Assembly (NCBI GenBank): GCA_902780235.1
Contig: CACZEL010000021.1
Location: 1 to 44,156 of the forward strand
DNA from: an uncultured Bacteroidales bacterium
Lineage (GTDB): Bacteria > Bacteroidota > Bacteroidia > Bacteroidales > Paludibacteraceae
Direction: 5' to 3'
Length of the DNA stretch: 44,156 nt
In this document: one piece after another, positions 5,688 to 41,506 of the stretch
Layout of the letters: the number at the start of each line of letters is the position of its first letter
How positions within the stretch are numbered: the first letter of the stretch is position 1
The notes under the pieces: model-generated
The model's input: only the letters and a program-made list of their open reading frames with translations
What the model was told of the DNA's origin: nothing
Database searches by the model: none
Made by a program: the position numbers and the translations under genes

Positions 5688-5733
5688 CAGCCGAAATGAA
5701 AAAATGGTAAATGATTAAATCGTAAATGATTTT

Positions 5734-7038
5734 ATGTTTGATAATTTAAGCGAACGATTAGAACGAAGTTTTAAGATTCTGAAGGGTGAGGGTCGTATCA
5801 CCGAAATCAATATTGCGGAGACCGTCAAGGACATCCGTAAAGCGCTCTTGGAGGCCGACGTCAACTACAAGACCGCCAAGCAGTTCACCGACCGCGTGAA
5901 GGAGAAAGCCTTGGGACAGAACGTGATCAATGCCGTTCGTCCGGGACAACTCTTGGTGAAGATCACCCACGATGAGTTGGCGGAACTGATGGGCGGTGAG
6001 GCGCAGGACTTGAACCTCAAGGGTTCGCCGGCGGTCATCTTGATGTCCGGTCTGCAGGGTAGCGGTAAAACCACTTTCGCTGCCAAGCTGGCTAACTATC
6101 TGCAAACGAAGAAGAACAAACGCGTGATGCTGGTAGCCTGCGACGTCTATCGTCCTGCCGCTATCGAGCAGTTGCGTGTGCTCGGTGAGCAGATCAAGGC
6201 GACTGTCTATACGGGCGAGAACGAGTCGAACCCGGTCAAGAAAGCGCAGGACGCGATCAGCGAGGCACGTCGTATGGGGTACGACGTAGTGATCGTCGAT
6301 ACTGCCGGTCGTCTGGCGGTCGATGAGCAGATGATGCAGGAGATAGCAGCGATCAAAGAGGCGATCACGCCGAGCGAGACCTTGTTCGTGGTCGATGCCA
6401 TGACCGGTCAGGACGCCGTCAACACGGCCAAGGAGTTCAATGACCGCATCGATTTTGACGGCGTGGTGCTGACCAAGCTGGATGGTGATACCCGTGGCGG
6501 TGCGGCGCTTTCGATCCGCAGCGTTGTAGATAAACCGATCAAGTTCATCGGTACGGGTGAGAAAATGGAGGCGCTGGATGTGTTCCATCCTGCCCGTATG
6601 GCCGATCGTATCTTGGGTATGGGTGACGTGGTGTCGCTCGTGGAGCGTGCGCAAGAGCAGTACGACGAAGCGGAGGCAAGACGAATCTCCAAGAAGATCG
6701 CCAAGAACCAGTTCGACTTCAACGATTTCCTCAGCCAACTGGCGCAGATCAAGAAGATGGGTTCGATGAAAGACCTGATGAGTATGATCCCGGGTATGGA
6801 CAAAGCCCTGAAGGGTGTGGAGATCAGCGACGATGCGTTCAAGCCGATCGAAGCGATGATCAACTCGATGACACCCGAAGAGCGTGCGAACCCGGCCTTG
6901 CTGAACGGTAGCCGCAAAGCCCGTATCGCCAAAGGTGCCGGCGTGGATATCGTGGCCCTCAACCGCTTCCTTAAGCAGTTTGACCAAACGGCCAAGATGA
7001 TGCGGAAGGTTCAACAGATGAGCGGTCGAAAACGTTGA
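5734..7038 (+). CDS. ffh: Signal recognition particle protein Ffh
   Basis: A 434-residue SRP GTPase that binds signal sequences of nascent membrane proteins and docks with FtsY. The order is N domain (about 1-95), then G domain with P-loop GLQGSGKTT (106-114), DTAGRL (189-194) and TKLD (247-250) followed by the DTRGGAAL segment. A Met-rich C-terminal M domain ends in MMRKVQQMSGRKR, which binds SRP RNA and signal peptides. Length is normal. The start ATG is 47 bases after the -7 element, and no upstream in-frame ATG is sensible. The spacer between promoter and start is itself made of imperfect repeats of TAAATGAT type. No SRP RNA gene was found in the window. Confidence 0.97.
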   Translation: MFDNLSERLERSFKILKGEGRITEINIAETVKDIRKALLEADVNYKTAKQFTDRVKEKALGQNVINAVRPGQLLVKITHDELAELMGGEAQDLNLKGSPAVILMSGLQGSGKTTFAAKLANYLQTKKNKRVMLVACDVYRPAAIEQLRVLGEQIKATVYTGENESNPVKKAQDAISEARRMGYDVVIVDTAGRLAVDEQMMQEIAAIKEAITPSETLFVVDAMTGQDAVNTAKEFNDRIDFDGVVLTKLDGDTRGGAALSIRSVVDKPIKFIGTGEKMEALDVFHPARMADRILGMGDVVSLVERAQEQYDEAEARRISKKIAKNQFDFNDFLSQLAQIKKMGSMKDLMSMIPGMDKALKGVEISDDAFKPIEAMINSMTPEERANPALLNGSRKARIAKGAGVDIVALNRFLKQFDQTAKMMRKVQQMSGRKR

Positions 7039-7055
7039 GGTTTTCGACGTTAAAA

Positions 7056-7080
7056 AGTTAAAATGGTGCTTCGCACGTTA
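7056..7080 (+). repeat. TTC-loop hairpin spacer, copy 1
   Basis: AGTTAAAATG, then GGTGC-TTC-GCAC, then CGTTA. It has the same flanks and loop as two copies at 10358-10418, but a different, still complementary stem. It lies in the gap between ffh and the next gene. Confidence 0.65.
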
Positions 7081-7084
7081 GTTT

Positions 7085-7618
7085 ATGGAAGATTCTCCGA
7101 AATCGTATCAACCGGGATGGGGTGAGAAGAAGAAACATCATCACCATCATCACCATACCGGACCCAACGAGAATAATCGCGGTTGGGGCGGCGCATTGCG
7201 TATGAAAGACAAACAGGCTTATTACGGTCTGATGTTCGCGATTATTGTCGCCTTGGGCTTCGGTGCGTACAAACTGATTGGTATGTTCGTCGCAGAGTTC
7301 CGCGCCATGCCGAACGATGATCCGACGACGGAGATGAATGTGGATGAGTTGGATATACGGCGGGTTGAGAAACAGGAGGCGCTGATGGTGAGCGACAGTA
7401 TCGCCAAGACTTATCAGTTTGACTCTACGACCATCAAGAAAGTGCAGACCGAATCGCACCATGTCTATCGTCCGCCGCGTAAGGAAGACAAATGGTACAT
7501 CACCCAACGCGAATGGAAGAAGATTTGGGCGGATTACAAGATAATGCGCTGGGAACGCAAGCAGAAAAAAGCAGACCAACGTAAAGCGAAAGAAGAAAGT
7601 CAATCGAAAGAAGAATGA
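7085..7618 (+). CDS. Small membrane protein with natural poly-His tract
   Basis: 177 residues. The N-terminal cytoplasmic-looking stretch contains KKK followed by seven consecutive histidines (18-24). A single membrane helix (about 46-70, GLMFAIIVALGFGAY) follows, then a charged tail with a basic C-terminus (KKADQRKAKEE). There is no signal peptide. Its stop overlaps the folD start by ATGA, so it is coupled to folD and probably transcribed from the ffh promoter. I do not recognise a named family. The His tract could bind divalent metal, but nothing else supports that. Confidence 0.8.
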   Translation: MEDSPKSYQPGWGEKKKHHHHHHHTGPNENNRGWGGALRMKDKQAYYGLMFAIIVALGFGAYKLIGMFVAEFRAMPNDDPTTEMNVDELDIRRVEKQEALMVSDSIAKTYQFDSTTIKKVQTESHHVYRPPRKEDKWYITQREWKKIWADYKIMRWERKQKKADQRKAKEESQSKEE

Positions 7619-8517
7619 TCTTAGACGGAAAGAAAATAGCGGCAGACATACGTGCCGAGATCCGCGAACAGGTAGCGGCATGGGTGCAGGAAGGCAAGCG
7701 GGTACCGAAGTTAGCCGTGGTCATCGTGGGCAATAATCCTGCCAGCGAGACCTATGTGGCGAACAAGATGAAAGCCTGCGCTGAAGTGGGCATGGAGGCG
7801 GTCAAGATAGCGTACCCGACTGAGATCTCCGAGCAGACCCTGCTCAATGAGATCTCCCGACTCAATAACGATCCCTCTATCGACGGCTTCATCGTGCAAC
7901 TGCCGCTTCCCGATCATATCAACGAATCGACGATCCTCAGTGCGATCGACTACCGCAAGGATGTGGACGGTCTGACACCCGCTAACGTAGGCCGTACCGT
8001 GCAAGGTCTGCCGTCTATCGTGAGTGCCACCCCGCGCGGCATCCGTGAGTTATTAGCGCGGTACTCCATCCCTACGGCCGGCAAACATGTGGTCGTGATC
8101 GGACGATCGAACATCGTCGGCAAACCCGTTGCGTTGTTACTGATGCAACGTCCGTATCTGAGTCTGCCCGGTATGAGTACAGCCTCGTTGGGCGATGCGA
8201 CGGTGACCGTTTGTCACAGCAAGACGCAGGACTTAGCGGCTATATGCCGCACGGCGGATATCATCATTGTGGCTGCCGGTAGTCCCAAACTGCTGACCGC
8301 CGACATGGTCAAAGAAGGAGCCACCGTCATTGATGTCGGCATCAACCGCATCGATGACCCTTCCTCTCCTCGCGGATATCGCTTGGTAGGCGATGTGGAC
8401 TTTGAGAACGTAGCCCCCAAAGCTGCTTATATCACTCCCGTTCCCGGTGGTGTAGGCCCCATGACGATTGTCAGCCTCTTGCAAAATACGCTGCAGGCGT
8501 ACAGTTTGAAAGTTTGA
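7615..8517 (+). CDS. folD: Bifunctional methylenetetrahydrofolate dehydrogenase/cyclohydrolase FolD
   Basis: 300 residues. It interconverts 5,10-methylene-THF and 10-formyl-THF in one-carbon metabolism, in the cytosol. Visible signatures are the YVANKMKAC segment with the catalytic Lys, QLPLPDH, KDVDGLTP (115-122), the NADP-binding GRSNIVGKP (163-171) and PVPGGVGPMT near the C-terminus. A loop after GKPVALLLMQ is a few residues longer than in most FolD proteins. The last residues (SLKV) and the stop codon are encoded by the first units of a GTTTGAAA tandem array, so the exact C-terminus was set by the repeat. It is coupled to the preceding membrane protein gene. Confidence 0.97.
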   Translation: MILDGKKIAADIRAEIREQVAAWVQEGKRVPKLAVVIVGNNPASETYVANKMKACAEVGMEAVKIAYPTEISEQTLLNEISRLNNDPSIDGFIVQLPLPDHINESTILSAIDYRKDVDGLTPANVGRTVQGLPSIVSATPRGIRELLARYSIPTAGKHVVVIGRSNIVGKPVALLLMQRPYLSLPGMSTASLGDATVTVCHSKTQDLAAICRTADIIIVAAGSPKLLTADMVKEGATVIDVGINRIDDPSSPRGYRLVGDVDFENVAPKAAYITPVPGGVGPMTIVSLLQNTLQAYSLKV

Positions 8518-8534
8518 AAGTTTGAAGGTTTGAA
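8504..8534 (+). repeat. 8-bp tandem array (GTTTGAAA x4)
   Basis: Four units of GTTTGAA plus one variable base. They cover the last four folD codons, its stop and the whole spacer to the prfA ATG at 8535. Confidence 0.85.
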
Positions 8535-9635
8535 ATGAACATATTGGATAAGATAGACGGATTAGAAGCGAAGTTCCATGAGGTGAGTCTGCTGATCACA
8601 GACCCTTCGGTCATTGCCGATCAGGCACGATATGTGCGACTGAATCGTGACTACCATGACTTGGAGCGCGTACTCGAATGTGCTCATCGGTACAAGAAAG
8701 CGGTCAAAGATCTGCAGGACGCCAAGGATCTCTTTTATAACGAGACCGATCCGGATCTCAAAGAGATGGCGCGTGCGGAGATCGATGAACTCGAACCGAA
8801 GATTCCTGAACTCGAAGAAGAGCTCAAACTGCAACTCTTACCTCAAGATCCCGAGGACGGCAAGAATGTCGTCATGGAGATCCGTGGCGGTACGGGCGGT
8901 GACGAAGCGGCTATCTTTGCCGGTGACCTCTTCCGCATGTACACCAAGTATTTCGAGATGAAGGGATTCAAATACTCTGTTTCTTCGTTCAGCGAAGGTG
9001 CATGTGGCGGATACAAAGAGATCATCTTCAATGTCACAGGCGAGAACGTCTATGGTACGCTCAAATACGAATCGGGTGTGCATCGCGTGCAGCGTGTGCC
9101 GGTGACCGAGACCCAAGGACGCGTACATACCTCTGCGGCTACCGTGGCAGTACTGCCTGAAGCAGATGAGTTCGAAGTGCATATCAACGAAGGCGAGATC
9201 AAATGGGAAACCTTCCGTTCAGGTGGCGCCGGTGGACAGAACGTGAACAAGGTGGAGTCGGGTGTGCGTCTGCGCTATAACTGGAAGAACCCCAATACGG
9301 GTGAGGTGCAAGAGATCCTGATTGAGTGTACCGAGACGCGTGACCAGCCAAAGAACAAAGAACGCGCGCTCTCGCGCCTGCGCACGCAGATATATGATAA
9401 GGAGCACCAGAAATATATCGACGACATCGCTGCCCGCCGTAAGACGATGGTTTCCACCGGTGACCGTAGTGCCAAGATCCGCACCTACAACTATCCGCAA
9501 GGACGTATCACCGACCACCGTATCGGGTACACGGTTTATAACCTTGCAGCCTTCATGGACGGCGATATCCAAGGCGTCATTGATGCCCTGCAAGTAGCAG
9601 AGAACGCAGAACGACTCAAGGAGTCTGAACTTTAG
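8535..9635 (+). CDS. prfA: Peptide chain release factor 1
   Basis: 366 residues. It recognises UAA/UAG stop codons and triggers peptide release. The catalytic GGQ is at residues 233-235 (SGGAGGQNVNK). The codon-recognition tripeptide is PVT in RVPVTETQGR, the PxT form that marks RF1 rather than RF2. Length and the N-terminal coiled region are normal. It follows folD with a repeat spacer only. Its stop codon lies within the TTAGCTN array that leads into rsmE. The GGQ Gln is the expected target of PrmC methylation; prmC is not in the window. Confidence 0.97.
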   Translation: MNILDKIDGLEAKFHEVSLLITDPSVIADQARYVRLNRDYHDLERVLECAHRYKKAVKDLQDAKDLFYNETDPDLKEMARAEIDELEPKIPELEEELKLQLLPQDPEDGKNVVMEIRGGTGGDEAAIFAGDLFRMYTKYFEMKGFKYSVSSFSEGACGGYKEIIFNVTGENVYGTLKYESGVHRVQRVPVTETQGRVHTSAATVAVLPEADEFEVHINEGEIKWETFRSGGAGGQNVNKVESGVRLRYNWKNPNTGEVQEILIECTETRDQPKNKERALSRLRTQIYDKEHQKYIDDIAARRKTMVSTGDRSAKIRTYNYPQGRITDHRIGYTVYNLAAFMDGDIQGVIDALQVAENAERLKESEL

Positions 9636-9659
9636 CTTTTAGCTATTAGCTGTTAGCCA
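9632..9659 (+). repeat. 7-bp tandem array (TTAGCTN x4)
   Basis: Units TTAGCTT, TTAGCTA, TTAGCTG and TTAGCCA. The prfA stop (TAG, 9633-9635) lies in the first unit and the A of the rsmE ATG ends the last. The inverted complement of this family is found inside holA (38630-38664). Confidence 0.87.
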
Positions 9660-10363: not shown

Positions 10364-10418
10364 AATGGTACTTCGTACGTTAAACAGTTAAAATGGTTTT
10401 TATTTCATAAAAACGTTA
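10358..10418 (+). repeat. TTC-loop hairpin spacers, copies 2 and 3 in tandem
   Basis: Copy 2 (10358-10382) has stem GTAC/GTAC; copy 3 (10386-10418) has stem GTTTTTAT/ATAAAAAC. Both have loop TTC and flanks AGTTAAAATG and ACGTTA. They fill the rsmE to PAP2 gap and supply the rsmE stop. Confidence 0.75.
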
Positions 10419-10420
10419 AA

Positions 10421-11297: not shown

Positions 11298-11319
11298 ATA
11301 AAAAATAACAACAAAAATT

Positions 11320-12549
11320 GTGCCAAAATCAGAGATTAAAATAGCAAATCGACTGTATTTCTCGCAAGAAGGTGCGGAACGTCATTCGCGTCCTGCGGTA
11401 CGTGTTGCCTTGGCGGGTATCATCGTCGGCGTGGTTGTGATGATATTGACGCTTTGTATCGTGGTGGGTTTTAAACAAACCATCACGCAGAAAGTAGCCG
11501 GTTTTGGAGCGCATATACAAGTTGTTTCCTTTGATAACAATAACACCTACGACCTGCAGCCTATCGAGGTCTCGGACAGTCTTCTGTTCCGGCTTGGCAG
11601 TTATGAGCACGTACGCAGAGCGGCACCCTTCATCACCAAACCCGGTATGCTCAAGACCGATTCGGCTTTTCATGGTATCGTGCTCAAGGGAACGGACTAT
11701 TGGGATTTCTTCCGACATAATATCATAGACGGCGGTCTTCCGACCCAACCCAACCGGATCGTCATCTCAAAGGCGGTTTCTACCGAACTGCATCTGCAAG
11801 TAGGAGACGGAGTATATGCCTATTTTGTGGATGATACCGATGTGCGGGCGCGACGATTCACCGTTTGCGGTATCTATGAGACGGGTTTTGGTCAGTACGA
11901 TGACCTGTTTGTCATAACTACCCTGCGTGACGCCAGAAAATTGCAAGGTTGGGAGGCGAACACCTATTCGGGTGTGGAGATACTCGTCGATGACATGCAG
12001 TACTTGAACGAGACGGCGGATCGCATTTATTTCGCGACCGTCAATCATCTGGACGAAGACGGCTATCAATGCTATTATGTGCAGACGCTCCAAGAGCAGA
12101 ATCCGGCTGTCTTTGCATGGCTCGATCTGTTGGATATGAACGTGGTCGTGATCATTATCCTGATGCTGCTCGTTGCCGGATTTAACATCGTTTCCGGACT
12201 CATCATCCTGATTCTGGACGGTGTCCAATTGATCGGAACGCTCAAAGCCTTGGGTGCGGACAACCGTTTCGTTCGGCACGTGTTCCTCTGGCAAGCGACT
12301 CTGCTGATCGGAAAAGGAGTCTTGTACGGCAACTCGATCGCTTTTATCTTGGCAAGCATTCAATACAAATACCATCTTGTGCCGCTTGAGGCAGCGACCT
12401 ATTATGTGAGTTATGTGCCTATCGCCTTCCCGTGGGGATGGATTTTGGCATTAAATTTGCTTACCATCGGTGTATCCGTATTAATCCTCTTATTGCCGTC
12501 GATGATCATCTCCAAGATCTCTCCGGCACGAGTAATGCACTTTGAGTAA
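11320..12549 (+). CDS. LolC/LolE-type ABC transporter permease (FtsX/MacB fold)
   Basis: 409 residues. The N-terminal helix (AGIIVGVVVMILTLCIVVGF) is followed by a periplasmic MacB_PCD-like domain (about 50-260), then three helices in the C-terminal FtsX domain (VVVIIILMLLVAGFNIVSGL, a middle helix, and ILALNLLTIGVSVLILLLPS), ending SKISPARVMHFE, which is typical. Members extract lipoproteins from the inner membrane together with an ATPase; no ATPase gene is adjacent. The start is GTG at 11320; no ATG fits the conserved KIANRLYFSQ beginning. It is probably the first gene of an operon with the GSCFA, kinase and AraC genes. Confidence 0.88.
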   Translation: MPKSEIKIANRLYFSQEGAERHSRPAVRVALAGIIVGVVVMILTLCIVVGFKQTITQKVAGFGAHIQVVSFDNNNTYDLQPIEVSDSLLFRLGSYEHVRRAAPFITKPGMLKTDSAFHGIVLKGTDYWDFFRHNIIDGGLPTQPNRIVISKAVSTELHLQVGDGVYAYFVDDTDVRARRFTVCGIYETGFGQYDDLFVITTLRDARKLQGWEANTYSGVEILVDDMQYLNETADRIYFATVNHLDEDGYQCYYVQTLQEQNPAVFAWLDLLDMNVVVIIILMLLVAGFNIVSGLIILILDGVQLIGTLKALGADNRFVRHVFLWQATLLIGKGVLYGNSIAFILASIQYKYHLVPLEAATYYVSYVPIAFPWGWILALNLLTIGVSVLILLLPSMIISKISPARVMHFE

Positions 12550-12550
12550 G

Positions 12551-12571
12551 GTGAAATGTGAAAGGTGAAAG
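12551..12571 (+). repeat. 7-bp tandem array (GTGAAAG x3)
   Basis: GTGAAAT, GTGAAAG and GTGAAAG lie between the permease stop and the ATG at 12573. The same unit is used at 27924-27951 and 29036-29063. Confidence 0.85.
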
Positions 12572-12572
12572 G

Positions 12573-13433
12573 ATGAAGTTACAGACGATCGTGGATATTA
12601 AGCCTTCCAAATGGAAGATAGGGTATGAGGACAAGATCCTGATGCTGGGTTCGTGTTTCTCCGACGAGATAGGCGAGCAGATGAAACAGCGCTATCTATC
12701 TGTCACCTGCAACCCCTTCGGTACGCTCTATAACCCGCTCTCTATCTCCAATGCGATAAATGCCAAAATAAGTAAATGTGAAAATGAGAAAATTCCTCTC
12801 GTGGAACACGAGGGGTTGTGGCATTCGATGTCGCACCATGGTTCGTTCTCTCGTGCCGATAGAAACGAGGCGGAGCAAGCGGTACGCGCATCAATCGATA
12901 CCATGCAACAGGCGCTCAAAGAATCGACCGTTGTCATCGTTACCTTTGGTACGGCATGGGTCTATGAGATGAACGGAGAGATCGTCGGTAACTGCCATAA
13001 ATTGCCTGCCGACCGTTTCACGCGCCGCCGGCTTTCGGTCGAAGAGATTGTTGCCGCATGGCGTCCTATCCTTGATCGCTATCCCGATAAACATTGGCTC
13101 TTCACCGTCTCGCCCATCCGGCATATCAAGGACGGTCTCCACGAGAACCAGTTAAGCAAAGCAACACTGCTGCAAGCGGTAGAACAACTCTCCTCCCTTG
13201 AGGGGAGGTCGGGTGGGGTTTTGTATTTCCCGTCCTACGAAATCATGTTAGACGAACTACGCGACTATCGTTTTTATGCCGATGATCTCGTACATCCTTC
13301 TTCGTTGGCGGTCACCTATATCTGGGAGCGGTTTGTGGATACTTTCTGTACACCCCAAACGCGCAATGAACTGATTCTGCAGCATAAACGCTGGAAACAC
13401 GAACACCATATTCCTTTGCATTCTTATGAATAA
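12573..13433 (+). CDS. GSCFA-family protein (SGNH-hydrolase-like)
   Basis: 286 residues from the ATG at 12573. A GTG 15 bases upstream is in frame but lies inside the GTGAAAG array, so it is not preferred. The family motif GSCFSDEIG begins at residue 26 and resembles the catalytic Ser block of SGNH hydrolases. FTVSPIRH and DDLVHPSS provide later conserved blocks, the last with a candidate Asp/His pair. No signal peptide is seen. The substrate is unknown. A GC-rich palindrome encoding SLEGRSGG is inserted in frame near residue 209. The 3' end overlaps the kinase gene by eight bases. Confidence 0.88.
   Translation: MKLQTIVDIKPSKWKIGYEDKILMLGSCFSDEIGEQMKQRYLSVTCNPFGTLYNPLSISNAINAKISKCENEKIPLVEHEGLWHSMSHHGSFSRADRNEAEQAVRASIDTMQQALKESTVVIVTFGTAWVYEMNGEIVGNCHKLPADRFTRRRLSVEEIVAAWRPILDRYPDKHWLFTVSPIRHIKDGLHENQLSKATLLQAVEQLSSLEGRSGGVLYFPSYEIMLDELRDYRFYADDLVHPSSLAVTYIWERFVDTFCTPQTRNELILQHKRWKHEHHIPLHSYE
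13188..13223 (+). repeat. GC-rich SLEGR palindrome, copy 1 (in CDS)
   Basis: CCTCCCTTGAGGGGAGG followed by TCGGG and a G/T-rich tail. The stem is CCTCCC/GGGAGG. It is in frame in the GSCFA gene and shares sequence, orientation and encoded SLEGR with the copy at 16552-16589. Confidence 0.8.
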
Positions 13434-20313: not shown

Positions 20314-20323
20314 TAAACCTTCG

Positions 20324-20355
20324 TCATTACGTCATTACGTAATTACGTCATTACG
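20324..20355 (+). repeat. 8-bp tandem array (TCATTACG x4)
   Basis: Units TCATTACG, TCATTACG, TAATTACG and TCATTACG in the gdhA-kbl spacer. The unit is nearly self-complementary (CGTAATTACG), so the array can form a hairpin. Confidence 0.88.
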
Positions 20356-21554: not shown

Positions 21555-21558
21555 AGTT

Positions 21559-22584: not shown

Positions 22585-22603
22585 ACCAAAATATTTATTT
22601 AAG

Positions 22604-27919: not shown

Positions 27920-27923
27920 TAAA

Positions 27924-27951
27924 AGAGAAAGTTGAAAGATGAAAAGTGAAA
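27924..27951 (+). repeat. 7-bp tandem array (NNTGAAA x4) containing a start codon
   Basis: AGAGAAA, GTTGAAA, GATGAAA and AGTGAAA. The ATG of the next gene (27939) is in the third unit, so the first five codons (MKSER) are repeat-derived. Confidence 0.85.
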
Positions 27952-29039: not shown

Positions 29040-29063
29040 AAGGTGAAAGGTGAAAAGTGAAAG
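29036..29063 (+). repeat. 7-bp tandem array (GTGAAAG x4) holding a stop and a start
   Basis: Units GTGAAAG, GTGAAAG, GTGAAAA and GTGAAAG. The upstream TGA stop is in unit 1. The likely GTG start of the next gene (29057) opens unit 4. Confidence 0.88.
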
Positions 29064-30628
29064 GACTTAAGTACATAGTATTGGTGGGAAACATTGTAAT
29101 TTTTGCGGTGTTGTCCTTGGTGTTACCAATCTGCTTCGAAGAGAACGATGATGCGATCATGGTCATGATCGCAAATGGAGGCTACTCCGGTACTCCGGAT
29201 GGTCATCTGGTCTTCATCAATGTGCTCTACGGAACAGTTTTGGCCGCTTTGTATAGTCTGACCAAAGCCGTCGAATGGTACACGCTTTCGTTTGCCGTAC
29301 TTCATGTGCTATCCATGTCTGTGTTGGCGTATTTCGTGCTGACGATTCCGAATCGTGCCAAATGGGAACGTATCATCTGGCTCTTGGTTTTGTATACTTT
29401 ATGGGCACGCATACTCGCAGCCTTTCAATTTACCACCACAGCCGGGCTTACTTGTCTTGCCGGCTGCGTCTTATTGCTGCGCAATAGTAATAAAGCTCGA
29501 TGGACGGGTGTATTCTTCGTACTCATTGCCTCATTAATACGTATCACCGCCGCCGGCTTAGTTGGTGTCTTGATGGCGCCTATTATCGTATATACCTACC
29601 GACTTGATTGGCGTAGATATATTCCTTTAGCGGTGATGCTGATGCTGGTAGTCGGATGTCGCATGACCCATAACTATATCTATCAGAGTGATCCGGCTTG
29701 GAATTACTATAATACTTATAATAACTTGCGTGGACAGTTGACCGATAATCCAAACGCTTATACCTTAAGTCCTTCCGATATGCCGGAGGGTGTCGATTGG
29801 ACGGATTACCAGTTATTGCTTCGTTTCATTCCCGATCCGGAGAAAATGGATCTGACTACTATTCAGTGTCTTATTGCTGTTGTAAAGCAAGTGTCGCTGA
29901 AAAACCGAATGCATAATATACATCATCTGGATCGATATGCTGTCGAGTTAGCGATCTTATTCGCTTTGTTGGTACTGATGATTTTGACCACCGGTAATAA
30001 AACGAAATATGGTTTCTTGATCCTCTATACACTTTTCATCCTTGCGTTAATGGTCTATGTGAGCATGGATGGCTTCCTTAAGAATCGTGTCTTTCTCTGC
30101 ATGTTGTTAGCCATCTTGATGACCGATTTCATGCTTTTACCTGATACTACCGGACGGAAACGCAGTTGGGGGATAGCGCTGGCTATTGTGGCTTTATGTG
30201 GATGGCTGGGCTATCAGACGAACTGCGACCAGATACGCAAACGGCATCGCCGTCATATTTGGGAAGATATGCAACGTCCGCTTTTGGCAAAGATGCCGAG
30301 CGATGCGATAGTTGTCACCATCGGAACGGGTCTATGTATGGATGCTGTGAATCCTTGGCACGTTTGGCCGTATTCGTTTACCAAATATACTTTGGGATGG
30401 CTGACGTGGTGTCCGCTGAACGAACCCGTAGGACATTCGTATCGGGTGTTCTTGCAGGACAATGTCTATCTGTTCACCAATCATGATTTTGACAATGAGG
30501 GTACTTCTCTTCAATTGGTTCGTGAACAACTGGAGAAACATTACGACGCACCTACAGAGATCGAGTGCGTTCACAAAAACGATCACTATTTGATCGTCCA
30601 ATTAAAAAAACTGAATACTGAACACTGA
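29057..30628 (+). CDS. Polytopic membrane protein, GT-C glycosyltransferase-like
   Basis: 523 residues with about ten membrane helices over residues 1-390, then a soluble C-terminal part. An acidic cluster right after the first helix (CFEENDDAIM) sits where GT-C enzymes such as ArnT keep their catalytic acidic residue in the first external loop. No other signature is visible, so a polymerase-like role is also possible. The start is GTG at 29057 within a repeat. An ATG-initiated form would lose the first helix. The last codons and stop fall in the ACTGAAN array. Its neighbours point to glycan transfer. Confidence 0.7.
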   Translation: MKGLKYIVLVGNIVIFAVLSLVLPICFEENDDAIMVMIANGGYSGTPDGHLVFINVLYGTVLAALYSLTKAVEWYTLSFAVLHVLSMSVLAYFVLTIPNRAKWERIIWLLVLYTLWARILAAFQFTTTAGLTCLAGCVLLLRNSNKARWTGVFFVLIASLIRITAAGLVGVLMAPIIVYTYRLDWRRYIPLAVMLMLVVGCRMTHNYIYQSDPAWNYYNTYNNLRGQLTDNPNAYTLSPSDMPEGVDWTDYQLLLRFIPDPEKMDLTTIQCLIAVVKQVSLKNRMHNIHHLDRYAVELAILFALLVLMILTTGNKTKYGFLILYTLFILALMVYVSMDGFLKNRVFLCMLLAILMTDFMLLPDTTGRKRSWGIALAIVALCGWLGYQTNCDQIRKRHRRHIWEDMQRPLLAKMPSDAIVVTIGTGLCMDAVNPWHVWPYSFTKYTLGWLTWCPLNEPVGHSYRVFLQDNVYLFTNHDFDNEGTSLQLVREQLEKHYDAPTEIECVHKNDHYLIVQLKKLNTEH

Positions 30629-30644
30629 AAACTGATTACTGTAC
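30610..30644 (+). repeat. 7-bp tandem array (ACTGNNN x5)
   Basis: ACTGAAT, ACTGAAC, ACTGAAA, ACTGATT and ACTGTAC. It includes the upstream stop codon (30626-30628) and fills the spacer before the ATP-grasp gene. Confidence 0.88.
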
Positions 30645-30650
30645 ACTACA

Positions 30651-35472: not shown

Positions 35473-35486
35473 TTATATTTTACACT

Positions 35487-36599
35487 ATGATAGATTTTAA
35501 TCGACCGACTCTTACGGGCAAGGAAGCCCATTATATGTACCAAGCGGTATATAACGGAAAGTTATCCGGAAACGGTATGTTCACCAAACGCTGTCAGGCG
35601 TGGTTCGAAGAGCACTACGGTTTTCGCAAAGCTCTTTTGACAACGTCAGGAACAGATGCACTCGAAATGTGCGCCATGCTCTGTGACCTGCAACCCGGCG
35701 ATGAGGTCATCATCCCGAGTTATACCTTTGTCAGCACGGCCTTGGCGTTTCTGCGCGAAGGAGCGAAAGTGGTGTTTGCCGATTCGATGAAGCGTAACCC
35801 GAACCTCGATGCCGAGTCGCTTGAAGCACTTATTACGCCGCGTACCAAGGTCATCGTGCCCGTTCATTATGCCGGTGTAGCATGCGACATGGACGCCATC
35901 ATGGCGGTCGCCGACAAGCATCATCTGCTCGTCGTCGAAGATGCCGCACAAGCCATCGACAGCTACTACAAATCAAACCTCAAACATCAAACATCAAACA
36001 TCCTGCCGTTAGGCAGTATCGGCCCCGGAGGTGAAGGTGGTCTGCTGGTGGTGAACGACGAGCGTTTTGTGCGTCGGGCAGAGATCATCTGGGAGAAAGG
36101 TACCAACCGTGCCGAGTTCTTCCGCGGTGAAGTGAATAAATACGGATGGGTCGATATGGGCTCTTCTTTCCTGCCCAGCGAAGTAAATGCCGCTTTCTTA
36201 TGGGCGCAACTGGAGAACTTGGATGCTATCCAGGCGAAGCGTAAGACGTTGTGGAACAGTTATTACCAGCAACTCAAACCGCTCGCGGACAAAGGATGTT
36301 TTTCCATGCCCGATATCCCGGAGTATGCGACGAACAATGCCCACATGTTCTACCTTGTGTTGCCGTCATTGGAAGCACGTACCGCTCTCATCAAATACCT
36401 CAAAGAGAACGGAGTAGGTGCGGTCTTCCATTATTTGAGCCTGCATAGCAGTGAGTTCTATAAGAACCGCCATGACGGTCGTCAACTGCCTGAATGTGAC
36501 CGCTATGCCGATTGCCTCGTGCGCCTGCCGCTCTTCTATGACTTGACGCTGGAACAAGTGAATACGATATGCGAACTGTTAAAGACATATTATCAGTAA
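35487..36599 (+). CDS. DegT/DnrJ/EryC1 aminotransferase (WecE/ArnB-like) lacking PLP-lysine segment
   Basis: 370 residues. Strong similarity to dTDP-4-amino-4,6-dideoxygalactose transaminase along its length (LLTTSGTDALEM, IPSYTFVSTALAF, VVEDAAQ with the PLP-contacting Asp152, EIIWEKGTNRAEFFRGEV, AHMFYLVLPS, AVFHYLSLHSS). However, between LGSIG (176-179) and GGEGG (181-185) the family normally has about 14 residues including FSFHETKN, which contains the lysine that holds PLP. Here only one Pro is present. Just upstream a TCAAACA array adds about ten residues. The protein as written cannot form the usual internal aldimine. Possible explanations are an inactive allele, misassembly or a new function. 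Its 3' end overlaps the next gene by 31 bases. Confidence 0.87.
   Translation: MIDFNRPTLTGKEAHYMYQAVYNGKLSGNGMFTKRCQAWFEEHYGFRKALLTTSGTDALEMCAMLCDLQPGDEVIIPSYTFVSTALAFLREGAKVVFADSMKRNPNLDAESLEALITPRTKVIVPVHYAGVACDMDAIMAVADKHHLLVVEDAAQAIDSYYKSNLKHQTSNILPLGSIGPGGEGGLLVVNDERFVRRAEIIWEKGTNRAEFFRGEVNKYGWVDMGSSFLPSEVNAAFLWAQLENLDAIQAKRKTLWNSYYQQLKPLADKGCFSMPDIPEYATNNAHMFYLVLPSLEARTALIKYLKENGVGAVFHYLSLHSSEFYKNRHDGRQLPECDRYADCLVRLPLFYDLTLEQVNTICELLKTYYQ
35973..36000 (+). repeat. 7-bp tandem array inside the aminotransferase gene (TCAAACA x4)
   Basis: TCAAACC followed by three TCAAACA units. It is in frame and encodes SNLKHQTSN-like sequence immediately before the missing PLP-lysine segment. Confidence 0.87.
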
Positions 36600-38146
36600 T
36601 TCTTCTGCTGTTCGGCATCGGCTGGTCCTTATGGTTCGTCTTTGCGGGATTCGGAAACCCGCAAGATCCGCTCTATTGGCTCTATAAGTACCAAACGCTC
36701 GAATGCGGATGGATGGCGATCGGAACGATCCTTACCGGCGGAGCCTTAGTGCGGCTCTTCGGAGCAAACCTGCTGATGCTGAGGCTCGCAGCATGGGTCA
36801 CGGTTGCATCTGCTATCGTGCTGCCGTACTGCTGTCTGCTCACCAAAGAGCAAAGACGCAACAATATTCATTGGCTGGCATTGGCTTTCGCCTTTATGAA
36901 CTACGGCGCTTTCCAGGAATTCAGTTCCGGCACCCTCACCGTCCTCCTCCTCTCCGCCATCTGGGTCTGTGCAGTCCAACGACCAACGACAAACGACAAA
37001 CGACAAATCCTGTCAGCCGTGCTGGCAGGTCTCGCCGTAACGGTCCGCTTCCCGAACATTCTTGTGCTGCTGATTCTTATCCCTTTATGGAAGAAACGCA
37101 GCCTATGGTTAGTACCTGTCGCGGTTTTATCTGCAGGGCTGATTTATCTAATCGGTTATGCCCTTATCACGCCGGTCTCGATGGATCCGGCGATGGGAAG
37201 TCATGGAGTAGGGGAGATGATCTCCGCCCTTTGGGACCGCGGCTCTGTCCTCTTGCTCTACCTTCTAATGTGGGGCGGCGTCATGGCGATAGGTCGTTTT
37301 TCCAACGACCAACGACAAATGACAAACGACCACGGCTCTGCCGATCGCCAGAAATTACCAATTGCCGCAGGCGTCATCGTCGGTGCCTTGCTCTGCTATT
37401 ACGTCTCGCGCGCCATCCCGACATGGAAATGGTATAATATGGACCTGACCTATCTCATCTCTGCAATGATTCTCGTTATAACGTTATACCGTTATACCGT
37501 TATCTCGAGAGATCGTGCGTTGTTGATAGGCGCTCTGCTCCTCATGATAGCGACCCTCGGTACCGATACGGCCTGGCTCAAACTCTTCCCTGCTGTCCTG
37601 TGTCTGCTGCCTGTGGCAGCGGTGCAGTACGAGGCTTCGATGCGGCAGTATCTCTTCCCTGTACTGCTGATCTTGGCGGTGACGGTAATGATCCGTTTCT
37701 CGATCAACAGTGTCGGCAGCAGTAACTTGCGCGTGTCGAACACCCCTTCGCAAGTAGCTCCTTATACCCATATTCGTATTACGGAGAAAGAAGAAGCATG
37801 GATGCAGCAGGTCCTTGCCGACTATTCATCGTTAAATGACCAAATGGTAAATGTTTTGGCCGTAGGACGTAACATGCATCTGATGCGTGCAATCACAGGC
37901 TGCGAGGCGGCGGTATATAATGAGTTCTGGTCGAATATTTTTGATTCCGTTTATACCACCAAATACGAACAGATCATTGAGGCACAACACCCGATCGTGT
38001 TCTGTTCTTTTGCGCCGAACTTCAAGAAAGAGACCGACCGCGATACCGAGTCATGTTTGGAGAACATGCTCCGTGCCCACGGCTACCACGAAATCGACCG
38101 CTCGGACTATAAATATATGATTTATATACCAACGACCAACGACTAA
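36569..38146 (+). CDS. Polytopic membrane protein, GT-C-like, with three internal repeat tracts
   Basis: 525 residues with about eleven helices and a C-terminal soluble part of about 130 residues. An acidic residue after the first helix (FGNPQDPLYW) is a candidate GT-C catalytic position. It is analogous in layout to the 29057 gene. Two CAACGAC arrays (encoding RPTTNDKRQ and SNDQRQMTND, in hydrophilic loops) and one GTTATACC array (encoding LVITLYRYTVIS) lie in frame. The end (TTND, stop) is also repeat-derived. The start ATG lies within the aminotransferase gene. A lipid-sugar donor GT-C role (as ArnT) is inferred from neighbours. Confidence 0.72.
   Translation: MRTVKDILSVILLLFGIGWSLWFVFAGFGNPQDPLYWLYKYQTLECGWMAIGTILTGGALVRLFGANLLMLRLAAWVTVASAIVLPYCCLLTKEQRRNNIHWLALAFAFMNYGAFQEFSSGTLTVLLLSAIWVCAVQRPTTNDKRQILSAVLAGLAVTVRFPNILVLLILIPLWKKRSLWLVPVAVLSAGLIYLIGYALITPVSMDPAMGSHGVGEMISALWDRGSVLLLYLLMWGGVMAIGRFSNDQRQMTNDHGSADRQKLPIAAGVIVGALLCYYVSRAIPTWKWYNMDLTYLISAMILVITLYRYTVISRDRALLIGALLLMIATLGTDTAWLKLFPAVLCLLPVAAVQYEASMRQYLFPVLLILAVTVMIRFSINSVGSSNLRVSNTPSQVAPYTHIRITEKEEAWMQQVLADYSSLNDQMVNVLAVGRNMHLMRAITGCEAAVYNEFWSNIFDSVYTTKYEQIIEAQHPIVFCSFAPNFKKETDRDTESCLENMLRAHGYHEIDRSDYKYMIYIPTTND
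36977..37004 (+). repeat. 7-bp tandem array in CDS (CAACGAC x4)
   Basis: CAACGAC, CAACGAC, AAACGAC and AAACGAC, in a loop of the GT-C-like protein. Confidence 0.88.
37303..37330 (+). repeat. 7-bp tandem array in CDS (CAACGAC x4), second tract
   Basis: CAACGAC, CAACGAC, AAATGAC and AAACGAC. Same unit as 36977-37004 and 38130-38157. Confidence 0.88.
37475..37506 (+). repeat. 8-bp tandem array in CDS (GTTATACC x4)
   Basis: GTTATAAC, GTTATACC, GTTATACC and GTTATCTC, encoding part of a hydrophobic helix. Confidence 0.85.
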
Positions 38147-38157
38147 CGACTAATGAC
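38130..38157 (+). repeat. 7-bp tandem array (CAACGAC x4) holding a stop and a start
   Basis: CAACGAC, CAACGAC, TAACGAC and TAATGAC. The GT-C gene stop TAA (38144-38146) and the holA ATG (38153-38155) both fall in the array. Confidence 0.9.
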
Positions 38158-39199
38158 AGCAAAATTCCCCGATATAATGGCCGCATTGAAGGCCGGAACA
38201 TACGCACCGATCTATGTGCTGTGCGGCGAAGAACCTTATTATATGGATCGCGTGTATGAGTTCATCGCGGAGAACGCTTTGGACGAGATGGCGCGTGAGT
38301 TTGACCAGCAGATCGTCTATGGACGTGACCTGCAGGGCGCTGATATAGCGCCCGTCATCAGTGCCGCTCGCGGCTATGCCATGATGGGGGGACGAAAAGT
38401 GGTCATCGTGCGCGAAGCGCAGACGATCAAAAAATGGGAAGCGCTTGAAGCCTACTTATCGGCGATCATGCCGCAGACCGTACTCGTCATCTGCTATAAT
38501 GGCAAACCCGACAAACGGCAGAATATATGGAAGAAAGTAGCGGAACATCCGCAGGTTCTTTGGATGCAGTCCGACAAACTGCGTGACTACGAGGTCGAAC
38601 GCTGGATCAATAATTATATTCAGGAATATAACAGCCAACAGCTAATAGCTAACAGCCAACAGCTGAAGATCGATCCGAAAATAGCACCGCTGTTGGCTGA
38701 TCACATCGGTACGGACCTCTCGGCTATTGTAGGAGCCTTGGATAAACTGATCGCGGGTCGTCCGGAAGGTGTCAATGTCATCGATGCCGCACTCGTCGAG
38801 CGCAATATCGGTATCTCCAAGGACTATAACATCATGGAGATGCAAGCGGCGATCATACGCGGCGATGTGGTGAAAGCCAACCGTATCGCGCAGTATTTCG
38901 CGTCAACGAAAGACCATGTGATGATTCGCGAAATAGCGCCGCTGTTCACCTTCTTCTCCAATCTGCTGATGTACCATTACATGCCGTATAAATCGCAAGC
39001 TTTTGTTGCGAAAGAGTTAGGCATCAATCCGTATTTCGTGAAGGATTACGAGATGGCGGCAAGACGTTACCCTGCCGGCAAAACCTTTCTTATTGTGGGC
39101 TATCTGCGGGAGATGGACGCGCGGCTAAAGGGAATTAACAACCCCTCAGCGAAGGACGCCGATCTGTGGAAAGAACTCATCTTCAAGATCATGCACTAA
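38153..39199 (+). CDS. holA: DNA polymerase III subunit delta
   Basis: 348 residues. The clamp-loader delta subunit, which opens the beta clamp. Recognised from APIYVLCGEEPYYMDRVYEFI at the start, GGRKVVIVREAQ, the middle ADHIGTDLSAIVGALDKL, and the C-terminal helices. Residues 160-171 (NSQQLIANSQQL) are encoded by a 7-bp array and look inserted between domains; the reading frame is kept. The stop is 54 bases inside the convergent lipoprotein gene. The ATG is in the CAACGAC array, so upstream glycan transcription probably reads into it. Confidence 0.93.
   Translation: MTAKFPDIMAALKAGTYAPIYVLCGEEPYYMDRVYEFIAENALDEMAREFDQQIVYGRDLQGADIAPVISAARGYAMMGGRKVVIVREAQTIKKWEALEAYLSAIMPQTVLVICYNGKPDKRQNIWKKVAEHPQVLWMQSDKLRDYEVERWINNYIQEYNSQQLIANSQQLKIDPKIAPLLADHIGTDLSAIVGALDKLIAGRPEGVNVIDAALVERNIGISKDYNIMEMQAAIIRGDVVKANRIAQYFASTKDHVMIREIAPLFTFFSNLLMYHYMPYKSQAFVAKELGINPYFVKDYEMAARRYPAGKTFLIVGYLREMDARLKGINNPSAKDADLWKELIFKIMH
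38630..38664 (+). repeat. 7-bp tandem array inside holA (AACAGCN x5)
   Basis: AACAGCC, AACAGCT, AATAGCT, AACAGCC and AACAGCT. The unit is the reverse complement of the TTAGCTG family at 9632-9659. Confidence 0.9.
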
Positions 39200-39667
39200 G
39201 GGATTCCAAGTGGTCGGCAGACCATGTTGCGTCACCCATAGAACACTATCCAAATCGGTACGAGTGAAGACTTTTTCTTCCTCGTCCGATTTTTTCTTGT
39301 TTTTGTTCATTGCCATATCCAGTTCGGCTTGATGGGCGGCTACGTACGCATTCTCCTCGGCTTCCAACTCGCGGAGCACTTTCGGATAGATCTTATTGAA
39401 GAACTGCGGATGGGCGGTGTACCAGACGAGCGAAGAGTCAAACTGTGCCTGCGTAATACCGTGTTTCTCTAACACTTGCGCATAGTACAGATCCCGCTCT
39501 TCGTGGGCGTCAAATCGAACACCCGACGCTTGGATCGCACCTTCCGTCTTATGCAGATCAATCAGCACGCGCCGCATCTCGCCCGAGTGCAAGATACCCT
39601 TCGGCCTGCAACCGGTCAGTACGAGCGCGCAAAGCAGAATAAACCCTATTTGTTGTAATGTCGTCAT
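39146..39667 (-). CDS. DUF4296-type lipoprotein
   Basis: 173 residues with a lipoprotein signal ([20 protein letters not shown], lipidated Cys20). The family is found next to lspA in Bacteroidota and has no known function. The mature part has MRRVLIDLHKTEGAI and KHGITQAQFDSSLVWYTAHP, matching the DUF4296 core. An Asp/Glu/Lys-rich segment follows. Its start overlaps the lspA stop by ATGA. Its last 54 bases are antisense to holA. It is the third gene of the metK operon. Confidence 0.85.
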   Translation of the reverse strand: MTTLQQIGFILLCALVLTGCRPKGILHSGEMRRVLIDLHKTEGAIQASGVRFDAHEERDLYYAQVLEKHGITQAQFDSSLVWYTAHPQFFNKIYPKVLRELEAEENAYVAAHQAELDMAMNKNKKKSDEEEKVFTRTDLDSVLWVTQHGLPTTWNPLVHDLEDEFFPQIGVLR

Positions 39668-40236
39668 GACGTTTTCTCGTCCGTATTTTTACTCACCTCT
39701 TTCATGTAAAAGAGCAGGATCACGATCACGGCACAGGTGATGCAACTGTCCGCAAAATTGAACACAGGACGGAAGAAGATCACTTCGCCCGCACTGTTGC
39801 GAATCAGCGGAAAATAGAACATATCCACCACTTTGCCGTAGAACCAATCGGCGTAGCCGAAGAGCTTGCCGTAGAACACGCAGTCGATGATGTTGCCCAA
39901 CGCGCCGGCGATGATGAATGCGATGCACGCAATATAGCCGTCCGGCGTCTCGGGCTTTTTGCTGATCACATGGATGTACCAGCCGAGCAAACCTACCGCC
40001 AAGAGACGGAAGAGCGTCAGCGCTAACTTGCTGAACCACTCGATGCCGAAGGCCATGCCGTTGTTCTCTACGAAACAAATCCAAAACCACGAGAAGACCT
40101 CATGGCTCTCGCCCAGCGCAAAATTGCGAACCACCATCAGTTTGATGATCTGATCCAGTACAACTGCACTGAACACGATACTGATTACAGCCCAAATGCG
40201 CTTTTTACTTCTGTCAATCGATTCAATTTCTCCCAT
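39664..40236 (-). CDS. lspA: Lipoprotein signal peptidase (signal peptidase II)
   Basis: 190 residues with four membrane helices. It cleaves the signal peptide of prolipoproteins after diacylglyceryl modification. The two catalytic aspartates are Asp138 (KVVDMF) and Asp163 (FNFADSC). Other conserved blocks are [16 protein letters not shown] and GNIID (the usual Arg after this Asp is Cys here). The start lies 52 bases inside metK, since no later start leaves the first helix complete. It is followed by a lipoprotein gene that is presumably its own substrate. Confidence 0.92.
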
Positions 40237-41468
40237 GTGAATAATTCTACTTCGCGGGTGAATGTATTTCCGTCCGAGTCGAAGAAAGTCTTCGTTACGA
40301 CCTCGTTCGTGCGGCCTACATGACCGTATTTGGCGGTCTCTTCGTACATCGGTTGGGTCAACTTAAGATCACGGATGATAGCGGCGGGACGAAGGTCAAA
40401 CAGCTCGTTCACCTTAGCGGCTATCTCGGCGTCGCTCATCTTCACTTGTGCCGTACCGTAGGTGTTGACATAGAGCGAGACGGGTTTGGCTACGCCGATC
40501 GCATAACTAACCTGCACCAAAGCCTCGTGCGCTACGCCGGCGGCTACCAAATGCTTCGCGATCCAACGAGCGGCGTAAGCCGCCGAACGATCCACTTTCG
40601 ATGGGTCCTTGCCGCTGAAGGCACCGCCTCCGTGCGCACCGCGACCGCCGTAGGTATCGACGATGATCTTACGTCCGGTCAGACCCGTGTCTCCGTGAGG
40701 ACCGCCGATCACGAAATTACCCGTCGGGTTAACCAACAACTTCGCGTTCTTGTCTGCCAAAAACTCATGCAGCAGATGGCTGTACCGGCTGTCACGCGTT
40801 GCTACACGAGGCAGGAGAATGTCAATCACATCTTGCTTGATTAGTTCAGGCGTTACCTTTGTACCTTGTCCTTTGTCACTTTGTACATACTCATCATGTT
40901 GCGTACTCAGCACGATCGTATCGATACGAACCGGTTGGTTCTGCTCGTCGTACTCGATCGTCACCTGACTCTTGCTGTCCGGACGCAGATAGGTCATCTG
41001 TTGTCCTTCCTTGCGGATACGCGCAAGCGTATAAACCAAGGTATGGGCGAGATCCAAGGTCAACGGCATATAGTTATCCGTCTCGTCGGTCGCATAGCCG
41101 AACATCATACCTTGGTCACCGGCGCCTTGCTCCTCTTCGGTCGCACGACTCACACCCATGTTGATATCGGCTGACTGCGCGTGCAAGGCGGTCAAGATAC
41201 CGCAACTCTCCGCTTCGAACTTATACTCCGCTTTGGTGTAACCGATATCGGCGATCGTCTTGCGGGCGATTTTCTGGATATCCACCCATCCTTTGCAACT
41301 CACCTCTCCGGCTACAACCACTTGTCCGGTCGTACACAAGGTCTCACACGCTACGTGCGCCTGCGCGTCCTGCGCTAACATATTGTCCAGTATCGCATCT
41401 GATATCTGGTCACTCACTTTGTCCGGATGTCCTTCCGACACCGATTCTGATGTAAATAAATAATGCAT
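40185..41468 (-). CDS. metK: S-adenosylmethionine synthetase
   Basis: 427 residues. It makes SAM from methionine and ATP. Signatures: [16 protein letters not shown] (13-28), [15 protein letters not shown] (115-129) and [19 protein letters not shown]. Residues 195-205 ([11 protein letters not shown]) follow the conserved VLSTQHDE and are encoded by a 7-bp array, apparently inserted in a surface loop. The ATG is 39 bases after the terminator-like hairpin, which itself follows a SAM-II aptamer, so expression should fall when SAM is abundant. metK is co-transcribed with lspA and the DUF4296 lipoprotein gene. Confidence 0.96.
40855..40886 (-). repeat. 7-bp tandem array inside metK
   Basis: On the minus strand, GTACAAA, GTGACAAA, GGACAAG and GTACAAA: three units of seven and one of eight. 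It encodes about eleven residues extra to the usual MetK loop. Confidence 0.7.
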
Positions 41469-41473
41469 TATAA

Positions 41474-41506
41474 CGTTTTAACAATTTAACAGTTTAACGG
41501 TTTAAC
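41474..41506 (-). repeat. 8-bp tandem array before metK (GTTAAANN x4)
   Basis: On the minus strand, GTTAAACC, GTTAAACT, GTTAAATT and GTTAAAAC, directly after the terminator T-run and ending six bases before the metK ATG. Confidence 0.87.

Follow-up and report, generated by a model that had tools for sequence, protein, structure and literature searches.

Short tandem arrays in the window and the source genome

The 44,156-bp stretch of DNA analysed here, hereafter the window, is the entire contig C21 of a rumen Paludibacteraceae metagenome-assembled genome (MAG; 2.28 Mb, 58 contigs, 78.6% complete), and it carries short head-to-tail arrays of 7- or 8-bp units both between and within its open reading frames (ORFs). 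The release-factor protein it encodes shares 99% identity with the one in rumen MAG RUG14487, and its neighbours carry the names Paludibacteraceae or Bacteroidales. A preliminary description had named nine gene junctions made up of such arrays, and with Tandem Repeats Finder (TRF) at a low threshold and by reading the sequences we found all nine. It had the series begin at 5702, where an array does lie, though as a 15-bp (7+8) array at 5694-5731. The arrays are listed below with their state, where noted, in the nearest genome found, G129, long blocks of which align to the window at 78-85% nucleotide identity; the names folD, prfA, holA, metK and DegT are presumed from the translated sequences, not from family searches.

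5694-5731, plus strand: alternating 7/8-bp units (AAATGATTAAATCGT) directly 5' of the ORF at 5734 (TRF, period 15, 2.5 copies)
8503-8535, plus strand: 8-bp array GTTTGAAA, 4.1 copies, linking the 3' end of the folD-like ORF (7615-8517) with the prfA-like start at 8535 (TRF)
9631-9657, minus strand: 7-bp array TTAGCTN, the minus-strand form of AGCYAAN with an AGT cap, between the prfA-like ORF and the next ORF (TRF); G129 has an 8-bp TGACGATA-type array at this site instead
12548-12577, plus strand: 7-bp array GTGAAAG (TRF); missing from G129, whose stop and start overlap there
12757-12793, plus strand: 8/16-bp array (AAAATGAG type) within the ORF at 12558-13433 (TRF)
20322-20355, plus strand: 8-bp array CGTNATNA, 34 bp, with five CG spaced 8 bp; with its edges, about 44 bp missing from G129
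27922-27952, plus strand: 7-bp array of GTGAAAG type (TRF); about 35 bp missing from G129
28500-28531, plus strand: 7-bp array ATGGTGA, in frame within the ORF at 27939-29039 (TRF)
29036-29064, plus strand: 7-bp array GTGAAAG across a stop (29039) and the next start (29057) (TRF)
30607-30647, plus strand: 7-bp array ACTGAAN (TRF, period 7/21); 23-bp gap in G129 in the junction alignment
35972-36002, plus strand: 7-bp array ATCAAAC, in frame in a DegT-like aminotransferase (ORF 35487-36599) (TRF)
36978-37007, plus strand: 7-bp array AACGACA, in frame within a membrane-protein ORF; G129 differs in sequence there
37302-37332, plus strand: 7-bp array CCAACGA, also in frame within that membrane-protein ORF; G129 again differs in sequence
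37474-37503, plus strand: 8-bp array CGTTATAC, in frame; in G129 the site is taken by a 7-bp AATTACC array
38128-38157, plus strand: 7-bp array AACGACT at the junction ahead of the holA-like ORF; AATCATC units in G129
38630-38663, plus strand: 7-bp array AGCYAAN, in frame in the holA-like ORF
40854-40886, minus strand: imperfect TACAAAG array of 7/8-bp units, 30 nt in frame within the metK-like ORF (TRF); missing from G129
41477-41508, plus strand: 8-bp array TTTAACAN upstream of the metK-like ORF (TRF, period 8/16)

Beyond the window, we sampled DNA of the source genome to a total of 844,156 bp (41 loci from contigs C1-C20 together with C21; the 844 kb sample), in which AAATGGTAAATG, noted for the first array listed, occurs 34 times. 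Run on a blind sample of 20 x 20 kb (score >= 40, overlaps removed), TRF returned 208 arrays, with 74 at period 7, 17 at 8, 28 at 14, 14 at 15, 11 at 16, 10 at 21 and 54 at other periods; the peaks are 7, 8 and their sums (14, 15, 16, 21 and 22), and periods 2-6 are almost absent. Dinucleotide shuffles (five replicates) yielded 7.6 arrays per replicate overall and 0.0 at periods 7 and 8. Our own detector, which is blind to arrays of three or fewer units, gave per 100 kb of the 844 kb sample 25.6 arrays of period 7, 5.4 of period 8, 0.5 of period 6 and 0.0 of periods 2-5, the latter being the part of the unit-length range of phase-variable microsatellites (1-5 nt) covered by a scan from period 2 up. 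A second-order Markov control modelled on the first 400 kb yielded no arrays when the threshold was set slightly higher. An 11-bp period class is also present, with 12 of the 208 TRF arrays against 0.4 per shuffle.

In the 844 kb sample we counted 299 non-overlapping arrays of eight word families: AGCYAAN (83), GTGAAAG (62), AATTRAA (59), CGTNATNA (26), AGTCRAA (25), CAAAGTA (18), CGAGATNT (13) and AAATCAT (13). Because these families were picked after inspecting the first period scan, 299 is a lower bound for all arrays. The preliminary description had held that the arrays are neither a CRISPR nor one repeat family, and both statements stand: the units are 7 or 8 bp long, head to tail and without spacers, and there are at least eight word families. 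Its further remark that units differ by locus is right in that there are several words, but the words are not private to their loci, GTGAAAGGTGAAAG having 58 exact occurrences in the genome versus 2 for its reversed control.

Using gene calls from a simple ORF scoring of our own (565 genes, 524 junctions), we found 174 of the 299 arrays outside genes, compared with 19.3% intergenic DNA (binomial p 1e-49). The excess at junctions, on which the preliminary description had made its case depend, is therefore real, but confinement to junctions is not: 125 arrays are within called genes, 99 of them in the interior of complete genes (74 genes) with 30 codons or more to either end, and in the window alone the arrays at 12757, 28500, 35972, 36978, 37302, 37474, 38630 and 40854 are inside ORFs. 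Peptides encoded by in-gene arrays in the first 400 kb and the window include VESQKSKVES, ANSQQPIA and KGERLKVKGER. The arrays outside genes comprise 145 at co-directional junctions, 13 at convergent and 12 at divergent junctions and 4 at locus edges; counted by junction, 139 of 524 carry an array (118/442 co-directional, 11/40 convergent and 10/42 divergent). AGGTGA matches the anti-Shine-Dalgarno sequence, but ribosome binding was rejected as an explanation given the similar array rates at convergent and divergent junctions. Stop codons in all frames were likewise considered as a common principle; this would suit GTGAAAG (TGA, with a period not divisible by three) but was rejected because families such as AGTCRAA and CAAAGTA read without stops.

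Array anatomy and comparison of sites between species

A typical array has four to five units and spans about 30-34 bp. Among period-7 arrays of at least 26 bp, 177 of 190 have four or five units (four in 93, five in 84, six in 8), as do 29 of 30 of period 8, and the same preference appears in G129 (51/52 and 17/18 for periods 7 and 8) and in the pooled data of nine further genus members (39/43 and 11/12). Ends fall in a preferred phase in GTGAAAG (36/62, p 1e-14), AGTCRAA (20/25), CGTNATNA (22/26), AGCYAAN (37/83) and CGAGATNT (9/13), and in most families the end register is often stronger at one end than at the other. AGCYAAN arrays carry a terminal cap, [AT]GT, after 25 of the 37 arrays ending in the common phase (25 of all 83), against 24 of 658 AGCYAA occurrences outside arrays (p 2e-23). 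The CGTNATNA arrays are exactly 34 bp long in 13 of 26 cases, with five CG spaced 8 bp, a T before (96%) and an A after (81%). Apart from this T and A and the AGCYAAN cap, no strongly conserved flank was seen among the eight families. Most array words are not palindromic, CGTNATNA being near-symmetrical.

Differences between units are not scattered evenly. In a consensus-free test, deviating bases shared the same unit position in 172 pairs versus 69.9 (sd 7.0) at random. Identity of neighbouring units, observed versus pool-shuffled, was.277/.246 for GTGAAAG,.328/.299 for AGTCRAA and.113/.102 for AGCYAAN, and array pairs sharing four identical units numbered 6 against 6.0 expected for GTGAAAG and 3 against 0.8 for AGTCRAA.

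Comparisons between species used one MAG per species. For 48 of the 299 arrays both flanks were found in the G129 sample, the other 251 being left out; G129 has an array at 14 of these sites and none at 34. Coding sites with an array here had one in G129 (period score >= 12) in 5 of 18 cases compared with 5 of 329 random coding positions (p 4.5e-5), and the length difference to G129 was a multiple of three at 18/18 coding arrays versus 11/30 outside genes. Read by eye, the 14 shared sites comprise nine with a clearly different word, three of the same family, one with a word one base apart and one that is ambiguous (L102:13811). At L105:18674, for example, GTGAAAG stands here and AGTCGAA in G129, in frame. 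The three same-family sites are L098:4940 (identical), L220:19012 (one base different) and L105:10706, and at L102:7048 the same base differs from G129 in nearly all units. Arrays cleanly missing from G129, a difference that is unpolarised, include those at 12547, 20322, 27922 and 40854 of the window and at L098:8945, L220:19823 and L105:18101. By eye, the empty G129 sites at MetK, HolA and 20322 contain no unit available to expand, and no target-site duplication was seen at the G129-compared sites so read.

We then aligned the same protein sites across the genus. For the loop of MetK, 30 loci were kept from 58 genomes with a match (31 before L277, the window's own copy, was dropped). Four of these species rows have strong arrays, each of another word (GAATTGA, GGTGAAT, AGTCAAA and GGTGAAC), four including the window have imperfect TACAAAG-type arrays, eight have other inserts and fourteen have none; on a metK tree built without the loop, in which several nodes are weakly supported, these states are interleaved. 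The DegT-like enzyme has an array (score >= 11) at the same codon site in 7 of 19 rows and the HolA-like protein in 4 of 17 species rows, mostly with different words in both cases. The sister species L289, L122 and L133 have G/C-rich or palindrome-like inserts at the MetK and HolA loops instead of arrays, so small inserts of several kinds are tolerated in these loops. In the window's DegT-like ORF, 14 residues (HLAAFSFHETKNIT or similar) are missing in frame directly after the array (36003-36030), although they are present in all 18 covering rows of relatives. The missing residues include what we take to be the cofactor lysine of such aminotransferases, and the ORF is perhaps an inactive or re-purposed copy, as far as its sequence suggests.

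The words themselves are partly species-specific. A 21-bp GTGAAAG pattern, allowing two mismatches, has 169 matches in the source genome (reversed control 12); of the four further genus members covered by this search, one has 7 and three have 0, and 10 of 101 family genomes have any match. Three-unit AGCYAAN runs number 63 in the 844 kb sample, 0 in 516,116 bp of G129 and 2 in 80 kb of G246; the same 516,116 bp of G129 share GTGAAAR (13) and CGTNATNA (7). Period-7 density tends to fall outward: the source genome has 21.8 arrays per 100 kb, 59 loci of relatives whose prfA is 80-99% identical (609,729 bp) have 9.5, and 21 loci of Bacteroidales further removed have 3.0. Values for the ten genus members sampled range over 1.2-15.0 per 100 kb, in small samples (only 24 kb for G227 and 38 kb for G219), and among five samples from other genera, G001, G003, G009 and G027 have 0.0-3.8 and G031 has 9.0, the last in 22 kb only. 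The lineage-wide process suggested in the preliminary description agrees with these data, as all ten sampled genus members have 7/8-bp arrays, the same permissive sites hold different words in different species, and the words are partly species-specific; the mechanism behind it is what we infer below.

Possible origins of the arrays

The arrays have a fixed period, a narrow size, preferred end registers and, in one family, a terminal cap, and at several sites they are present or absent without other change. They lie in frame within genes, recur at the same sites with other words, and draw on word sets that are partly lineage-specific. Our tentative reading, which we hold to be quite possible but would not call probable, is that they are small discrete insertions, recurrently gained and quickly lost or overwritten, written by short-reach copying from a pool and filtered by selection. 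Each array of about 30-34 bp and four to five units would be written at insertion by copying from the species' pool of existing arrays or from a short template, and after every 7-8 nt the strand being made would realign. With such realignment, each unit would be drawn from a degenerate word independently of the one before it, and a new word would be able to take the place of an old one where an array already stands. We considered short-patch illegitimate recombination as a possible route for the copying. Selection would spare inserts where harm is small, that is, between genes, in permissive protein loops and in frame; most arrays would have no dedicated function, and a few may be useful as leaders or start contexts. 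Short-reach copying from a pool is favoured because GTGAAAG, AGTCRAA and AGCYAAN lack neighbour likeness and lack whole-array copies beyond a small excess.

Several results weigh against this reading. Recurrence at intergenic sites alone is not significant (9/30 versus 6/47 array-free junctions, p 0.06), and the array at L098:4940 is identical in G129 (34/34) amid diverged flanks, which suggests constraint there. AATTRAA has a preferred start phase and no preferred end phase. Neighbouring units are alike, observed versus shuffled, in AATTRAA (.301/.082), CGTNATNA (.268/.050) and CAAAGTA (.474/.122), so that slippage or subfamily structure contributes in these families, and some block copying is seen in the pairs sharing four units in AGCYAAN (4 versus 0.4 expected) and AATTRAA (4 versus 0.1). 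The invariance of the other unit positions is partly built in, since the consensus words were chosen by us, a circumstance of which the 172-pair test is free. At its last base GTGAAAG varies almost exclusively outside genes (A24/G73, compared with G98 inside), and the Y of AGCYAAN is C60/T36 inside genes and C39/T56 outside; coding constraint therefore shapes part of the wobble. Finally, no enzyme or intermediate was found.

One gene of the window is a candidate mobiliser, though only that, by its likeness to the REP-associated tyrosine transposases (RAYT) of the HUH type:

4670-5533, plus strand: RAYT-like ORF (NCBIfam REP_Tyr_transpos, E 6e-7, 29 bits, below the 80-bit cut-off; no Pfam match at 1e-3)

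A small hairpin-like sequence, ACGTCATCGAAGATGATGT, flanks this ORF on both sides (4564 and 5552); its core has three copies in the 844 kb sample, two of them here, and was not seen at 11 RAYT loci of other genomes. The commonest 12-mer at RAYT flanks is part of a promoter-like sequence, not an array word. A promoter-like sequence recurs at about 5655-5695 of the window and elsewhere in the sample: a palindrome, TTTGCATATATGCAAA, adjoins TACCTTTGCA, which we take to be a Bacteroidetes-type -7 element, and GCATATATGCAA has 40 occurrences in the 844 kb sample. Near the contig end, on the minus strand at 43245-44033, lies a Zeta-toxin-like kinase (50.6 bits to Pfam PF06414). The gene block at 20364-27919 has, for most of its length, a second copy, 76% identical (query 13-6043), at G000:C26:17393-23500 in the source MAG outside the window. 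Contig C26 probably is contamination from another genus member because this copy has the same score as G245:C25:17357-23464; the MAG thus holds at least one probable foreign contig, which lies outside the sampled contigs.

Replication slippage at each locus, by which a chance near-repeat would expand by 7-8 bp, a length that suits the polymerase, before point mutation blurred the copies, predicts alike neighbours and open-ended lengths. Heptanucleotides were the commonest long simple repeats in most genomes of an earlier survey for which slippage was proposed (Mrazek, as summarised in PMC4679880), and both the alike neighbours of AATTRAA, CGTNATNA and CAAAGTA and the base that changed in nearly all units of L102:7048 are in its favour. 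However, little neighbour likeness is seen in GTGAAAG, AGTCRAA and AGCYAAN, unit number falls sharply above five, and preferred ends, a cap beyond the repeat and position-specific variation accompany this; the empty G129 sites at MetK, HolA and 20322 offered nothing expandable, and the same word stands at many unrelated loci. We consider slippage unlikely as the general origin, and recurrent insertion with fast turnover fits better. A transposase, for instance of a RAYT-like family, might instead move the arrays as miniature elements, with precise excision and re-insertion leading to word switching. This would suit the clean presence and absence, the defined ends and the bursts of particular words, and RAYT-like matches (pieces, not genes) occur in 11 of 11 genus members examined, 2-6 in each. 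Transposition predicts whole-array copies, though, and these are rare, four-unit sharing being at chance for GTGAAAG and in small excess in others; no strong flank motif was found beyond the T and A of CGTNATNA and the AGCYAAN cap, and no target-site duplication was seen at the sites read by eye. Array density does not track the counts of Y1 transposases, and presence of the RAYT-like family is mismatched in both directions, G009 having 9 matches and few arrays in 62 kb and G031 having arrays (9.0 per 100 kb in 22 kb) without the family. The window's RAYT-like ORF is also flanked by its own small repeat, rare in the 844 kb. We rank this explanation just after slippage and also regard it as unlikely.

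That the arrays are selected binding sites, presenting four to five cores at 7-8-bp steps to one DNA or RNA binder per word with a role in translation, mRNA stability or chromosome structure, seems doubtful to us. Nearly invariant core positions beside free ones, the narrow core number, the near-symmetry of CGTNATNA and the full conservation of L098:4940 in G129 speak for it, as does orientation at co-directional junctions, where GTGAAAG is mostly sense to the downstream gene (30:7, sense:antisense) and CAAAGTA is 0:10; translational control was proposed for TAACTGA by MacGregor (PMC4679880). Yet 34 of the 48 mapped arrays have no counterpart at the G129 site, array rates are similar at all three junction orientations, and the same words occur within unrelated proteins. 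Writing from an RNA template by a reverse transcriptase or telomerase-like enzyme, or filler DNA from Ku-dependent end joining, would be the least probable of these origins and is in our view very improbable. A period that does not change, together with a register that is in many cases stronger at one end of the array, does resemble reiterative copying of a template, but RVT_1 was found in 6 of 16 genomes and not in the array-bearing G021 (listed as 100% complete), and Ku in 0 of 16, several of the 16 being incomplete. Neither Ku-dependent joining nor a reverse transcriptase of recognisable type thus qualifies as a general candidate. A telomerase-like writer without a recognisable reverse-transcriptase domain is somewhat less far-fetched, though still improbable: such an enzyme would copy a short template over and over and so place four to five 7/8-nt units at breaks or gaps, some template positions allowing free choice, and a template set changing between species would cause the same sites to be rewritten in a new word.

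Relation to known repeats and meaning for the genus

The preliminary description had likened the arrays to the heptanucleotide repeats of cyanobacteria, an apt comparison as a resemblance. The short tandemly repeated repetitive (STRR) sequences of heterocystous cyanobacteria also have 7-bp units in few copies, often intergenic and dispersed; they reportedly occur inside the RNase P RNA gene (a finding ascribed to Vioque, 1997). They are also found in a hoxW promoter (PMC2670836). The arrays described here, however, belong to another phylum and have many words per genome, 8-bp families, mostly four to five units and in-frame arrays at recurrent protein-gene sites, and the mainly non-coding placement of the STRR class is seen here as 174 arrays outside genes and 125 inside. 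TAACTGA direct repeats were described in Beggiatoaceae, cyanobacteria and five Bacteroidetes (MacGregor 2015, PMC4679880). According to that paper, the Guaymas genome has TAACTGA repeats of 2-6 copies each, mostly in intergenic DNA just upstream of starts, with some in ORFs, and related heptamers are rare or absent as repeats; Paludibacter propionicigenes, by name of the same family as our source genome, has two TAACTGA sets; and in Microcystis, Gramella and Elizabethkingia other heptamers are mixed in. The paper also suggests a role in rearrangement. Whereas Guaymas has one word, there are at least eight word families here, at all junction types and also inside genes, and the TAACTGA repeat TAACTGATAACTGA has 0 occurrences on either strand of the 844 kb sample.

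GGGAATC-type heptamers of Xanthomonas and Nostoc show a four-unit preference that was tied to G-quadruplexes, and 83% of the repeats share their positions between two species (Rehm 2015, PMC4692102). Like these, the arrays here are genome-wide with an intergenic bias and a four-unit preference (four units in 93 and five in 84 of 190, with a detector that registers four units and up), but none of the eight word families contains a tract of three G, the heptamer criterion for a G-quadruplex, and 34 of 48 positions are not shared with G129. Borg repeats are reported as perfect, with unit lengths such as 18-21 nt, and as divisible by three where they lie in ORFs (PMC9879509); they are likewise recent, fast-evolving and A-rich and occur in intergenic DNA and ORFs, while the arrays here are imperfect with 7/8-bp units. 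REP sequences and REPINs associated with RAYT are also short, numerous and dispersed, and a RAYT-like gene lies in the window, but here there is no single palindromic consensus and whole-array copying is near chance or in small excess. Heptamer repeats have been noted repeatedly in bacteria, their role being left open in PMC4679880 and PMC4692102. We found no report of many-word arrays or of same-site word replacement in Bacteroidales among the matches listed from the open-licence literature. Arrays of this kind are thus known, and what is new, as far as could be seen, is that the words are so varied, that array size is narrow with variation tied to certain unit positions, and that the same sites are re-used in frame.

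In this genus there are many species with numerous arrays in a genome, and inside well-aligned enzymes such as MetK one and the same site can be empty, hold an array or hold an array of another kind. Slippage, a mobile element and a binding site can therefore be told apart by comparison, and for the main families plain slippage is already disfavoured by the data. Given that 74 of the 565 called genes have an array well inside them, such arrays may be a notable source of protein loop evolution.

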